Part shown: positions 37,049 through 61,819 of the stretch, piece after piece
Layout: every line of letters starts with the position of its first letter
Position numbering within the stretch: the stretch's first letter is position 1
Source: Mariniflexile gromovii
Lineage (GTDB): Bacteria > Bacteroidota > Bacteroidia > Flavobacteriales > Flavobacteriaceae
Length of the DNA: 64,000 nt
Direction of reading: 5' to 3'
Assembly: GCF_017814435.1 (NCBI RefSeq)
Contig: NZ_JAGJCB010000018.1
Span: forward strand, 1-64,000
Translations under genes and position numbers: made by a program
The notes under the pieces: model-generated
Database searches by the model: none
What the model was told of the DNA's origin: nothing
What the model saw: the letters and a program-made list of their open reading frames with translations, nothing else

Positions 37049-38476
37049 ATGAGTATAACTGCGCAAACGGTATGGAATAATTGTCTTGAATTCATAAAGG
37101 ATAATATTCAACCGCAAGCATACAAAACTTGGTTTGAACCCATTCAAGCAGTTAAACTTACAGATAACGCTTTGAGTATTCAAGTACCTAGTAAATTTTT
37201 TTACGAATGGCTTGAAGAACACTACGTAAAAATCCTAAAGGTATCATTAACTAAAGAATTAGGCGAAAAAGCCAAACTTGTTTACATTATTAAAATGGAA
37301 AACACGTATGGCAACAAGCAGCCTTTTACCGAAAAAATTCCAAGTGCCAACAGAAGCGCCATGAAATCTCAGGAAGTTGATGTGCCACTGAACAATAAAA
37401 GCCCAGAATTACGCAATCCGTTTGTTATTCCGGGTATCAGAAATGTTAAGATTGAATCACAACTTAATCCTAATTACAGTTTTGAAAACTTTTTAGAAGG
37501 TGACTCTAACCGATTGGCACGTAGCGCAGGTTTAGCAGTGGCTTCCAAACCAGGAGGTACTTCTTTTAATCCGTTGCTTATTTTTGGAGGTGTTGGTTTA
37601 GGAAAAACCCACTTAGCGCATGCTATTGGTGTGGACATTAAAGATAAATACCCCGAGAAAACGGTTTTATACATTTCTGCTGAGAAATTTACACAACAAT
37701 ATATAGATTCTGTTAAGAAGAACAACAGAAATGATTTTATACATTTCTACCAAATTATTGATGTGTTGATTATTGACGATGTACAATTCCTTTCTGGAAA
37801 AACCGGTACACAAGATGTATTCTTCCATATTTTTAACCATTTACACCAAAATGGTAAGCAAGTTATTTTAACGAGTGATAAAGCACCTGTTGATATGCAA
37901 GATATTGAACAACGCTTGTTATCTCGTTTCAAATGGGGACTTTCAGCTGAATTGCAAACACCGGATTTTGAAACCCGTGTATCAATTCTAAAGAATAAAT
38001 TATATCGTGATGGTGTAGATATGCCAGATGATATTATTGAGTATGTTGCCAAAAACATCAAGTCCAATGTACGTGAATTGGAAGGTGCTATTATTTCGTT
38101 AATTGCGCAATCATCTTTCAACAAAAAAGAAATCACTATTGATCTTGCTAGAGTTATCGTTGAGAAGTTTGTAAAAAACACGAAACGTGAAGTTTCTATT
38201 GATTATATACAAAAAGTAGTGTCCGATTATTTCCAAATGGATATTGACACACTTCAATCAAAAACCAGAAAACGACACATTGTTCAAGCGAGGCAATTGG
38301 CCATGTTTTTTGCTAAAAAATTCACCAAGGCTTCATTGGCAAGTATTGGTTCTCAAATAGGAAAACGCGACCATGCCACTGTTTTACACGCTTGTAAAAC
38401 TGTAGACAACCTATCTTCAACGGATAAGCAATTTAAAAAATACGTTGAAGATATTACTAAAAAACTATCTGTTTAA
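37049..38476 (+). CDS. dnaA: Chromosomal replication initiator DnaA
   Basis: Binds DnaA boxes and opens the origin in an ATP-dependent way. The 475-residue protein has all four domains. The N-terminal interaction domain is 'VWNNCLEFIKDNIQPQAYKTWF'. A short linker leads to AAA+ with Walker A GGVGLGKT (180-187), Walker B 'DVLIIDDVQFLSGK' and the box VII-type Arg in 'RLLSRFKWGL'. The C-terminal helix-turn-helix has the signature 'GKRDHATVLHACKTV'. The gene has a 184-base upstream gap shared with a divergent thioesterase gene. I looked for DnaA boxes there and found none that match TTATNCACA. Confidence 0.97.
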   Translation: MSITAQTVWNNCLEFIKDNIQPQAYKTWFEPIQAVKLTDNALSIQVPSKFFYEWLEEHYVKILKVSLTKELGEKAKLVYIIKMENTYGNKQPFTEKIPSANRSAMKSQEVDVPLNNKSPELRNPFVIPGIRNVKIESQLNPNYSFENFLEGDSNRLARSAGLAVASKPGGTSFNPLLIFGGVGLGKTHLAHAIGVDIKDKYPEKTVLYISAEKFTQQYIDSVKKNNRNDFIHFYQIIDVLIIDDVQFLSGKTGTQDVFFHIFNHLHQNGKQVILTSDKAPVDMQDIEQRLLSRFKWGLSAELQTPDFETRVSILKNKLYRDGVDMPDDIIEYVAKNIKSNVRELEGAIISLIAQSSFNKKEITIDLARVIVEKFVKNTKREVSIDYIQKVVSDYFQMDIDTLQSKTRKRHIVQARQLAMFFAKKFTKASLASIGSQIGKRDHATVLHACKTVDNLSSTDKQFKKYVEDITKKLSV

Positions 38477-56501: not shown

Positions 56502-57239
56502 ATGAGACAATTAACACTAAACGAATTAGAAGATAAATTCAGAGATTATATTTCTGATGTTGAATATTGTGAATTTTCAGATGTTATTACTAAATTGACT
56601 CAGTTGATAAATTTTTTAAAACATCAAAACATTTCAAATCGAATACTTGAAAGAATAGAAAGTGATTATTCTGAAATTAAAACAAAACTACCATCTGATA
56701 ACAATAATTTAAATTGGACAGATAAACAAAAAATAACCCAAGGATTGTTTACACCAGATATGCAGGGAGCATTTGCATATTTTACTATTCTTTCAAAATT
56801 TAATCAAGAAGACAAGTCGACACCACATTACATTCAACTAGCTAGAGATTGGTATGATAGAGGAAAAGATTTTTATGAATATCAGAGATATTTTAACACC
56901 AATTTCTTAAACCCATTCAAGGACTTATTCTTATGGTATATTTATGAAAGTAAAACAGAATCAACTTCTGATTATTTCTCATATAAAAGTCGAGATGAAA
57001 TAAAAGATCAGCTTGTGGATTTAAAGGAAATGCTATTAAAACAAGGTTATGGGCAACAAATAATCTTTGACGAAATTGAGGAATTAAAAGAATTAACCGA
57101 AAGAGTAAATAAAAAGAACTGGTTCGAATTGATAAAAGGTAAATTTATTGATTTGGCATTGAGCGGAGTGATTTCAATAGAAACAGCTAAAAAAATAATA
57201 GAAATACTAACAGGTTCTGAAATGAATCTTTTAAAATAA
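56502..57239 (+). CDS. Hypothetical protein inserted between trmD and rplS (1)
   Basis: A 245-residue cytoplasmic protein I do not recognise. It is helical throughout: an N-terminal Leu/Glu-rich segment ('LNELEDKFRDYISDVEYCEFSDVITKLTQLINFLKH'), an aromatic middle ('SKFNQEDKSTPHYIQLARDWYDRGKDFYEYQRYFNTNFLNPFKDLFLWYIYE') and a C-terminal 'KQGYGQQIIFDEIEELKELTERVNKKNWFELIKGKFIDLALSGVISIETAKKIIEIL'. The C-terminal helix pair looks like an oligomerisation or AbiTii-like region, but that is weak. Composition is more AT-rich than trmD. A 22-base repeat shared with 13928 follows 64 bases downstream. Confidence 0.6.
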   Translation: MRQLTLNELEDKFRDYISDVEYCEFSDVITKLTQLINFLKHQNISNRILERIESDYSEIKTKLPSDNNNLNWTDKQKITQGLFTPDMQGAFAYFTILSKFNQEDKSTPHYIQLARDWYDRGKDFYEYQRYFNTNFLNPFKDLFLWYIYESKTESTSDYFSYKSRDEIKDQLVDLKEMLLKQGYGQQIIFDEIEELKELTERVNKKNWFELIKGKFIDLALSGVISIETAKKIIEILTGSEMNLLK

Positions 57240-57415: not shown

Positions 57416-57952
57416 TTGAAAAACAAAATATTTAGAATAGGAAAAAATGCACTTGCGATTTGGGGTGGAATATCCTTAATTGGATTAATTCTTATTTTAG
57501 GCTATCTCGCCTACTCTACTTCAATGGGAAATAAAACTGTCGAAAACAAAGCGACAACATCTGACGTAAGATTCGTACTGAATTGGTGCGGACTTGGAGA
57601 CCAGCGAATTGAAAAAGTGCTGAATAGTTACGAATCTGGACGTTCATTCACTGGCGATTATCTTGATGCTTACGCAATCGAAATATCAAATGTGACTGAA
57701 ATGGAACTGCATAATAACAAAGGTTGGCATCGATTAGATAGTTTGCCAAAAGTATTAAATGATGCAGTGGAATTAGCCAATGGTTGGCAATATCAAATTC
57801 CTTGGTTTCCGAAAATGGACGAACTAAACCCTGAAAGCGTTTATGTTTATCCTTGGAGTATCTATTGTAACGGAATTGACCCATCTGGAACGGAATTAAT
57901 TTTTGTAATACCAAAAGACAAAATGGTCTATTATATTGGAACTAAAATGTAA
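57416..57952 (+). CDS. Hypothetical membrane-anchored protein inserted between trmD and rplS (2)
   Basis: A 178-residue protein I do not recognise. One membrane segment near the N-terminus (about 14-33, 'LAIWGGISLIGLILILGYLA') is followed by an exported or cytoplasmic domain with many Trp and Tyr residues. Examples are 'FVLNWCGLGDQRIEKVLNSYESGRSFTGDYLDAYAIEIS', 'LANGWQYQIPWFPKMDELNPESVYVYPWSIYCNGIDPSG' and 'FVIPKDKMVYYIG'. The start is TTG at 57416; a stop lies just upstream in frame and the next ATG would lose the membrane segment. The gene is bounded on both sides by ACGTT/ACACAACA-type sequences and looks like a small mobile cassette. Confidence 0.6.
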   Translation: MKNKIFRIGKNALAIWGGISLIGLILILGYLAYSTSMGNKTVENKATTSDVRFVLNWCGLGDQRIEKVLNSYESGRSFTGDYLDAYAIEISNVTEMELHNNKGWHRLDSLPKVLNDAVELANGWQYQIPWFPKMDELNPESVYVYPWSIYCNGIDPSGTELIFVIPKDKMVYYIGTKM

Positions 57953-58129: not shown

Positions 58130-58138
58130 ATTTTCGTG

Positions 58139-58200
58139 TTAAGGATAGCAGCGGCATCCTTTTGCTTTTGGGCAAAAGATATAGCGGATAGCCTGACTTT
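58139..58200. repeat. REP-like intergenic element B
   Basis: The stretch contains AAGGAT (58141-58146) with ATCCTT (58156-58161) and TTTTGC (58160-58165) with GCAAAA (58172-58177), two adjacent hairpins, then GATATAGCGGATAGCC. I recall 'GGATAGCAGCGGCATCC..GATATAGCGGATAGCC' as a family found between genes in many Flavobacteriaceae. It is partial evidence, from memory, for a dispersed repeat. Confidence 0.5.
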
Positions 58201-58275
58201 TTGCTTTAATTAAATATTCAATTTTAGCGTATTGTTCAAAGCAAAAAGAAACACCATAAAAATTACAATTATTAA

Positions 58276-58317: not shown

Positions 58318-58361
58318 GGTTAACCTCTGGCGAGAGTCGTGAATGTTGTTCTGAATTAACC
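58318..58361 (+). promoter_or_regulatory. Ribosomal protein L19 leader hairpin
   Basis: Between promoter and rplS the RNA can fold: GGTTAA (58318-58323) pairs with TTAACC (58356-58361), enclosing the small stem CTCT(GGCG)AGAG (58325-58336). The outer stem closes 19 bases before the rplS ATG. Autogenous leader structures of this kind have been predicted for rplS in Flavobacteria, as I recall, where L19 binds its own mRNA. Location and folding support it; the family name cannot be confirmed here. Confidence 0.6.
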
Positions 58362-58380: not shown

Positions 58381-58731
58381 ATGGAATCTTTAGTAAAGTT
58401 TGTACAAGACGAATTTGTAGCAAAAAAGGATTTTCCAGAGTTTGGAGCTGGAGACACAATTACAGTATACTACGAAATTAGAGAGGGCGAAAAAGTTCGT
58501 ACCCAGTTTTTTAGAGGTGTTGTAATACAAAGAAGAGGATCTGGATCATCAGAGACTTTCACCATCAGAAAAATGTCTGGTACTATTGGCGTGGAGCGTA
58601 TTTTCCCAGTTAATTTACCTGCATTACAAAAAATTGAAGTTAATAAACGTGGTAAAGTACGTAGAGCTAGAATTTACTACTTTAGAGGTCTTACTGGTAA
58701 AAAAGCCAGAATTAAAGAGCGTAGACGTTAA
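58381..58731 (+). CDS. rplS: 50S ribosomal protein L19
   Basis: Structural protein at the 30S-50S interface. The 116-residue sequence is canonical: 'FGAGDTITVYYEIREGEKVRTQFFRGVVIQRRGSGSSETFTIRKMSGTIGVERIFPVNLPALQKIEVNKRGKVRRARIYYFRGLTGKKARI'. It has its own promoter, a structured leader and a terminator, so it is monocistronic here instead of following trmD directly. Confidence 0.98.
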   Translation: MESLVKFVQDEFVAKKDFPEFGAGDTITVYYEIREGEKVRTQFFRGVVIQRRGSGSSETFTIRKMSGTIGVERIFPVNLPALQKIEVNKRGKVRRARIYYFRGLTGKKARIKERRR

Positions 58732-58756: not shown

Positions 58757-58789
58757 AAAAGCCTTGAAAAATTTCAAGGCTTTTTTTTA
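58757..58789 (+). terminator. Strong rho-independent terminator after rplS
   Basis: AAAAGCCTTGAA (58757-58768) pairs perfectly with TTCAAGGCTTTT (58773-58784) around four bases, followed by more T to 58788. It lies 26 bases past the rplS stop. Confidence 0.95.
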
Positions 58790-58846
58790 TTAACTTTTGT
58801 TAATAACCCTGGTTGATAAGTAGTTGATATTTAAAATGTTAAATGT

Positions 58847-58878
58847 TTTGGAATTTCAGCATTTGTGTTGTATCTTAG
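58847..58878 (+). promoter_or_regulatory. Promoter-like sequence at the start of the rplS-icd gap
   Basis: TTTG (58847-58850), a 20-base spacer, then TATCTTAG (58871-58878), one mismatch from TAnnTTTG. Transcription would begin near 58883-58885, right at a perfect 8-bp inverted repeat. No gene follows for more than 700 bases. Confidence 0.5.
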
Positions 58879-59181
58879 CTAAAATAAGAAACGGAAAAAC
58901 AATGCAAATTGGTTTCATCTAAACAATGAATTTAAATTCGGTTTCTTAATAAGGTAACGTTCTTTATAAATTGTAATTGTTTTTTGAGATTTTAATGCAG
59001 CATGTGTAAATGTGTTAAAGCAAAAAAATCATGATATTATAAAAAGTACTACATATAGATAATATAGGTAGCAACTAGTATAATTGAAAGTTTTAAAAAA
59101 ACAACAGTGCCGAAAGGATTGTTGTTATAATAGAAAACAATGTATTAAGAAATCTTGACGTTAAAACGAAAAGAAAGATTA

Positions 59182-59268
59182 ATGGCATCAAGAAAAGCAA
59201 TTATCAGAAACATTTTTGGTAATAGGTCAATACATTTTGAAAATTACAGAAGTGTTTCCTTGAAATAA
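59182..59268 (+). CDS. Possible 28-residue small protein inside the candidate RNA
   Basis: ATG at 59182 opens a 28-codon frame beginning MASRKAIIRNIFGNRSIHFE and ending in TAA at 59268. An A/G-rich stretch (GAAAAGAAAG) lies just upstream. The peptide is basic and has no hydrophobic span. Its stop overlaps the left arm of the 11-bp stem at 59260. ORFs of this length occur by chance in AT-rich DNA, so it is only a candidate, of interest if the transcript is dual-function. Confidence 0.22.
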   Translation: MASRKAIIRNIFGNRSIHFENYRSVSLK

Positions 59269-59351
59269 TAGCGCATCAATTGAAAAAATTTAGATAAAAC
59301 TAAATTGATTTGATAGAAGTATCAATTAGATTGGGTTATATTATTTCAAAG

Positions 59352-59400
59352 AAAGCCATGTCAAGGTAGATTAAATTCTGCAGGGATATGGCTTTTGTTT
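59352..59400 (+). terminator. Rho-independent terminator in the rplS-icd gap
   Basis: AAAGCCATGTC (59352-59362) pairs with GATATGGCTTT (59385-59395; one G-T pair) around a 22-base loop, followed by TGTTTTTAT. No annotated gene precedes it on this strand after the rplS terminator 560 bases upstream, so it implies another transcript. Confidence 0.75.
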
Positions 59401-59499
59401 TTATAGCTTCTCTGATATTTTATTAATAATTTCTTAATAGTTACTCTCTTTTTTATAATTCTGTGAAATATTGCTTTTATTAACACTTTTGATTAATCG

Positions 59500-59581: not shown

Positions 59582-61819
<2,238 letters not shown>

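Follow-up and report, generated by a model that had tools for sequence, protein, structure and literature searches.

The interval between rplS and icd in the window (the whole stretch of 64,000 nucleotides analysed here) almost certainly holds the gene of an independent structured RNA at 58884-59400, whose transcription is inferred, no transcript having been measured. Just upstream of the RNA promoter, at 58787-58830, lies an ordered array of four boxes, three of them TTATNAAC and one ATATCAAC, which is the best clue to the control of the RNA and was absent from an earlier account made from the letters alone (the sequence-only reading). The best model that we can offer is a large noncoding RNA whose transcription is set by DnaA, and we put its probability at about 0.55; neither a transcript nor DnaA binding has been measured. 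The features of the RNA gene are the following.

58757-58784, plus strand: intrinsic terminator of rplS, the left border, outside the RNA (12-pair hairpin, terminator scan)
58846-58850, plus strand: -33-type promoter element TTTTG (sequence, alignment)
58871-58878, plus strand: -7-type promoter element TATCTTAG, 40 nt after the array (sequence, alignment)
58884-59400, plus strand: structured noncoding RNA of about 517 nt (alignment, covariation, fold; start inferred from the -7 element)
58885-58948, plus strand: 5' domain closed by the 8-bp stem UAAGAAAC/GUUUCUUA at 58885-58892/58941-58948 (fold, alignment-free test)
58954-58965, plus strand: near-invariant island GTAACGTTCTTT (alignments)
58975-59202, plus strand: central domain with a long-range closing helix, 58975-58985/59192-59202, and several covarying stems inside (alignment fold, covariation)
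59207-59258, plus strand: stem-loop with the near-invariant tip UCAAUACAUUUUGA (alignment fold, covariation)
59260-59350, plus strand: 11-bp stem of the sequence-only reading, 59260-59270/59340-59350, with two hairpins near 59288-59307 and 59310-59325 (fold, covariation)
59351-59401, plus strand: intrinsic terminator of the RNA, stem 59351-59370/59377-59396 plus T-rich tail (alignment, fold)

Pfam identifies the left neighbour, rplS (58381-58731), as Ribosomal_L19 and the right one, icd (59609-61819), as a monomeric isocitrate dehydrogenase. The ORFs of the interval are all short in the ORF list of the window. No conserved ORF was found among 51 aligned relatives, where a start position was common to at most 7 sequences on the plus strand and 14 on the minus strand, and ORFs of 25 codons or more reached at most 0.71 (plus) and 1.10 (minus, overlapping frames) per alignment column. 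Short ORFs do occur, and the transcript could in principle be the mRNA of a small protein, but with starts so rarely shared and with variation that is compensatory, as in a structured RNA, we find this barely credible. The gap is thus free of protein genes, as had been proposed from the sequence alone, and of the idea of a new flavobacterial sRNA or a dual-function RNA the new structured RNA stands, whereas the coding role is not supported, for want of a shared ORF start.

An independent structured noncoding RNA gene should have its own promoter and terminator and be conserved between the two, and all of this is met here. The promoter elements TTTTG and TATCTTAG, of what we take to be the Bacteroidetes promoter type (TTTG/TAnnTTTG), are kept in the alignments of relatives, and from the -7 element the RNA is predicted to start near 58882-58884. 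A sigma-70 scan, whose scope does not include promoters of the Bacteroidetes type, gave six promoter-like sites against a mean of 8.2 in shuffled sequence, and the second terminator, with its stem within 59351-59396, was absent from the list of a simple terminator scan. The sequence-only reading had described the -33/-7-type promoter, the rplS terminator, the 8-bp stem at the predicted start, the 11-bp stem with its two hairpins and the last terminator stem followed by T-rich DNA, and each of them was recovered at the positions listed above.

The predicted RNA is strongly folded. The minimum free energy of 58884-59400 is -120.1 kcal/mol, compared with -83.5 (sd 5.2) in 100 shuffles (z -6.98), and the 3' domain gives a z of -6.58. 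RNAalifold on 51 sequences produced a multi-domain fold close to that of the single sequence. These 51 were drawn from 67 loci that carry the array, short or divergent ones being omitted, and 46 and 45 of them entered the alignments A1 (59205-59351) and A2 (58945-59204), on which compensatory changes were counted with structures derived from the same alignments. In A1, 98.2% of the cells pair and 83 changes affect both sides of a pair, as against 5-13 when the partners are slid; in A2 the figures are 93.4% and 269, as against 27-49. None of 500 shuffles of either alignment scored as high on any of five measures. Compensatory changes were found in 13 of the 14 helices counted, the 11-bp stem and its hairpins, whose covariation the sequence-only reading had proposed to check, being among the supported helices in A1; the tip stem 59227-59230/59237-59240 barely varies and neither supports nor contradicts its helix. 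The 5' stem lies in a poorly aligned region and was tested without alignment: duplex energies averaged -8.72 kcal/mol when both halves of the stem came from one locus and -4.68 when one half was taken from another species (P 3e-17, 53 loci, related species not being independent), a few loci with overlapping segments (L024, L097, L106, L195) having been kept.

No Rfam 15 family reached its gathering score inside the RNA when all models were run on the window and 14 relatives; the weak scores in relatives were below that threshold and fell outside the RNA body. The OLE, GOLLD, ROOL and raiA-motif/ModT families have Rfam models, and no covariance model of OLE, GOLLD, ROOL or raiA RNAs reached its gathering score inside the RNA in the same set. 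The gap likewise gave no match to 6S-Flavo RNA (RF01685) or RNase P RNA (RF00010), whose true copies lie elsewhere in the genome (G000:C18:23795-23901 and G000:C1:164890-165194, respectively), and tmRNA was found neither by ARAGORN in the window nor by Rfam in the gap. The view that the RNA is none of 6S, RNase P, tmRNA or SRP RNA is thereby upheld, SRP RNA being excluded by the Rfam scan only. With conservation that stops at the terminator, strong covariation and no Rfam 15 match, the earlier proposal of an independent structured transcript is also supported. A literature search, covering open-licence PMC text without supplements, retrieved no title or abstract on an RNA between rplS and icd or on a DnaA box TTATNAACA.

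The gene was conserved in other Flavobacteriaceae, where the sequence-only reading had suggested looking for it, within the genus and in 11 further genera of the family. When the whole gap was used to search 60 genomes (that of the window among them), all five other genomes of the genus had near full-length matches, of 74-87% identity, and the 11 further genera had matches with E <1e-7; in eight of these the match ends at query positions 607-615, the end of the second terminator. In 21 fetched loci, the window included, rplS lies on one side and icd on the other. The 51-sequence alignment contains near-invariant islands from promoter to terminator and little that is conserved beyond. This limit is hard to reconcile with a long leader or attenuator of icd, a reading that has in its favour only the position of the RNA upstream of icd on the same strand; moreover, icd is about 500 nt further away in six loci (L017, L020, L021, L090, L097, L116) and was not found within the fetched stretch in three others (L096, L102, L341). 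We regard such a leader as scarcely tenable, in line with the sequence-only reading, which had held that the RNA is not simply the leader of icd. In L017, L020 and L021 the extra stretch of about 500 nt between array and icd has the look of coding sequence in an alignment of such loci.

A profile of the RNA body, run on 46 further gaps, matched over nearly all or most of its length in three (L347, L341, L199) and at the 3' end in 16 (L025, L028, L029, L030, L105, L106, L114, L194, L204, L210, L214, L342, L345, L346, L353, L356), sometimes together with the ACGTTCTTT island (E <1e-4; shuffles reach 0.6 bits). Neither the array nor the RNA follows rplS in the eight genomes of genus g147 (probably Flavobacterium, although this is a guess), where icd begins 242-297 nt after rplS in five genomes and was not found within reach in three, and both are absent after rplS in nine genomes that belong to other families within the order, the sequence in one case being cut at 126 nt. 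When GTDB genomes were scanned for an exact pattern, at least 117 stretches matched, and the 80 among the matches listed were all named as Flavobacteriaceae, or only as Flavobacteriales or Bacteroidia. A covariance-model search of the order had hits in six of 246 genomes; it is no proof of absence, because only 12 of thousands of first-look candidates were scored per genome and it missed G006, G060 and G159, where the profile matches the 3' end. One weak hit of that search, L340 (38.2 bits, E 7e-4), comes from a genome of another family of the order (G054). No second copy was found in the genome of the window, the best further hit (L002) being inside a protein gene on the other strand. Extra hits of the island GTAACGTTCTTT fall in unrelated genes or outside genes and are about as many per genome as those of the reversed control, so that no antisense target was found. 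Judged from these comparisons, the putative RNA family is single copy where searched, strongly covarying, present in many genera of Flavobacteriaceae and absent from Rfam 15.

The array upstream of the promoter consists of four boxes.

58787-58795, plus strand: box 1, TTATTAACT; TTATNAAC in 65 of 67 loci
58798-58806, minus strand: box 2, TTATTAACA, inverted to box 1 and 2 bp from it; TTATNAAC in 60 of 67 loci
58811-58819, minus strand: box 3, TTATCAACC; TTATNAAC in 61 of 67 loci
58822-58830, minus strand: box 4, ATATCAACT, direct to box 3 and 2 bp from it; mostly ATATCAAC among the 67 loci

It adjoins rplS in 61 of the 67 loci and ends 40 nt from the -7 element in 46 of them and 41 nt from it in 15 (61 together). 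Boxes 2-4 with exact spacing and one mismatch at most occur once per genome in 59 of 149 genomes of the family, and the reversed control of this pattern in none of the 149. The conservation of boxes 2-4 is partly by construction, because L090-L119 and L194-L217 were fetched by that very pattern; this applies neither to box 1 nor to the spacing from the promoter. We infer with good, though not full, confidence that the array acts on the RNA promoter. The 9-mer TTATNAACA is fitted exactly by box 1 in 49 of the 67 loci, by box 2 in 43, by box 3 in six and by box 4 in three. Array and RNA do not always go together: in L342 and L346 the 3' part of the RNA can still be recognised but the array is absent, and the RNA profile finds nothing in L100, L119 and L209 (array with one mismatch at most), L360 (two mismatches) and L343 (three), perhaps as a result of divergence.

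The DnaA-like boxes, together with a dnaA gene that lies at a distance of about 20 kb in the window and of 9-19 kb in five relatives, could suggest that replication of the chromosome starts at this locus and that the RNA is an origin transcript like CcnA of Caulobacter. We examined this by third-codon GC skew, reading the genes of each strand apart, in samples from G005, G019, G029, G087 and G153; plain GC skew is unusable in these genomes, where it follows gene strand. A switch from negative to positive skew was absent at the RNA locus in all five sampled genomes (coarsely in G153, with the nearest samples about 90 and 120 kb away). In addition, G019, G087 and G153 have rRNA operons 8-20 kb downstream of the RNA locus that are directed towards it, and in G005 a distance of 239 kb separates dnaA from the locus. 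An origin at the rplS-icd locus was therefore rejected on skew and rRNA operon direction, and we consider it very improbable.

The skew switch was placed instead near rnr (RNase R) in four genomes: at 1.60-1.6475 Mb in G153 (rnr start at 1.646 Mb), 1.6-2.0 Mb in G005 (rnr at 1.668 Mb), 0.7-1.1 Mb in G019 (rnr at 0.912 Mb) and, noisily, 0.2-0.7 Mb in G087 (rnr at 0.386 Mb); the samples of G029 do not place it. The gene rpiB lies beside rnr in six of 12 genomes, and a rpiB-rnr gap is present in three of the four genomes with the switch near rnr. Four of the six gaps, one from each of four genera, together contain 11 copies of TTATNAACA, whereas shuffled sequence has 1.04 on average and none of 1000 shuffles scored as high. 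The E. coli-type TTATNCACA is found three times against 0.24 expected (two of 1000 shuffles as high), and two control 9-mers were not enriched (0 against 0.16 and 2 against 0.94). Three or more copies of TTATNAACA within 400 bp were met at three places in 2.04 Mb scanned, two of which were the rplS array and, in G019, the gap between rpiB and rnr, where an inverted pair, TTATTAACAATTGTTGACAA, closely resembles boxes 1 and 2. No box cluster was found before rnr in the remaining six of the 12 genomes, which include G087, G001 and G029. TTATNAACA is likely, but not proven, to be the flavobacterial DnaA box; the rpiB-rnr origin is itself inferred, and there are no binding data.

As a side observation, L126:11128-11842 and the rpiB-rnr gaps in L184, L187, L188, L189 and L192, which are situated near the skew switch and contain clusters of TTATNAACA as well as an inverted pair resembling the one in the array, make a candidate flavobacterial origin. 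It differs from the oriC labelled 'mnmG' in a related genus, in so far as the figure legend of PMC12843772 tells. In the window dnaA lies at 37049-38476 on the plus strand, about 20 kb from the RNA gene; the skew in relatives puts the likely origin far from dnaA, so that a record opening at dnaA would not open at the origin. The third cluster of TTATNAACA, three boxes at L057:14615-14760 in G005, is away from both the RNA gene and rnr and remains unexplained.

That the boxes of the array are DnaA boxes of a flavobacterial type is inferred from the enrichment of TTATNAACA in the rpiB-rnr gap, close to which the skew changes sign. On this inference, without binding data, DnaA is somewhat favoured as the protein of the array, which is then probably an off-origin array of DnaA boxes. 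As a direct pair 2 bp apart, boxes 3 and 4 also fit the preference of E. coli DnaA for direct pairs 2-3 bp apart, as given in the accessible part of PMC11317965; the inverted pair of boxes 1 and 2 has a geometry not described there.

The array might instead be bound by a transcription factor that recognises an AT-rich repeat and has no relation to DnaA, leaving the RNA as described. This is possible, though the less probable choice: a fixed distance from the promoter is usual for the site of any activator or repressor, TTATNAACA is not closely followed by boxes 3 and 4, and a whole array in single copy suits a dedicated site, but the same 9-mer, with the inverted pair of G019, recurs in the rpiB-rnr gap near the skew switch. 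We think it unlikely that the array is a reservoir or recycling site for DnaA, of the datA or DARS kind, with the RNA as a mere neighbour, since its near-constant distance to the RNA promoter and the two relatives that keep part of the RNA without it do not agree with such a site, even if an ordered, noncoding, off-origin box cluster, one per genome, would. Some observations also count against control by DnaA: boxes 3 and 4 are rarely exact TTATNAACA, TTATNCACA is enriched in the rpiB-rnr gaps as well, array and RNA are uncoupled in the two loci with part of the RNA and no array and in the five with an array and no detected RNA, rpiB adjoins rnr in only half of the 12 genomes and the third TTATNAACA cluster is unaccounted for.

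Under control by DnaA, the protein assembled on the array would help or block RNA polymerase at the promoter, and the amount of RNA would track the level of active DnaA and hence the state of replication. The RNA, with its many predicted helices, near-invariant loops and no conserved ORF, would act in trans; its likeliest role is that of a protein-binding scaffold or regulator, with a partner that is unidentified. The fuller proposal, of a new family of large RNAs in Flavobacteriaceae that has DnaA as a dedicated regulator through an off-origin array at fixed distance and that reports or enforces the replication state, is tentative, and we hold it at rather less than even odds.

The nearest published idea known to us is CcnA of Caulobacter crescentus, a cell-cycle noncoding RNA whose presumed activator is CtrA; as far as the available part of that source goes (PMC8959179), the likeness is that of a noncoding RNA gene beside DnaA boxes with the site of a cell-cycle regulator at its promoter. 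CcnA is an alphaproteobacterial RNA of 182 nt within the origin, whereas the RNA described here is of about 517 nt, off the origin and preceded by an ordered box array, and we claim likeness in layout, not kinship. The promoters of nrdA, purH and nrdD in E. coli, bound by DnaA at double boxes, share with the array a direct pair 2 bp apart upstream of an off-origin promoter (PMC11317965, seen in part). However, the E. coli box is TTATCCACA and that of the array TTATNAAC, and here the controlled gene is a structured RNA and there is an extra inverted pair. datA, DARS1 and DARS2 of E. coli are likewise noncoding clusters of DnaA boxes off the origin; what sets the array apart from them is that it keeps a near-constant distance from a promoter that serves a conserved RNA. 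A length of hundreds of nucleotides and a complex conserved fold also characterize the OLE, GOLLD, ROOL and raiA-motif/ModT RNAs, from what could be consulted of PMC12286853, PMC12054373 and PMC11706538, but no Rfam 15 model matches the rplS-icd RNA. The Rfp RNAs of Flavobacterium psychrophilum are flavobacterial RNAs without an Rfam family too (PMC9723704, in its accessible portion); genus g147, probably theirs by our guess, lacks array and RNA after rplS in all eight genomes.

The array offers a testable lead to the control of a conserved RNA absent from Rfam 15. If DnaA drives this RNA, it would be tied to replication initiation in Flavobacteriaceae, a link for which we know of no description. 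Two further products of the analysis can be tested directly, namely rpiB-rnr as a candidate flavobacterial origin and TTATNAACA as a candidate DnaA box.

The region upstream of rplS has features of its own. Two predicted proteins without a Pfam match (56502-57239 and 57416-57952, plus strand) are encoded between the tRNA (guanine-1) methyltransferase gene and a Flavo-1 RNA (RF01705, 53.8 bits) at 58134-58202 on the plus strand; L017 has the latter too, and L099 gives a match to it that falls short of the gathering score. Downstream of Flavo-1 and before rplS is the L19-Flavobacteria ribosomal protein leader (RF03130) at 58321-58348, on the plus strand.
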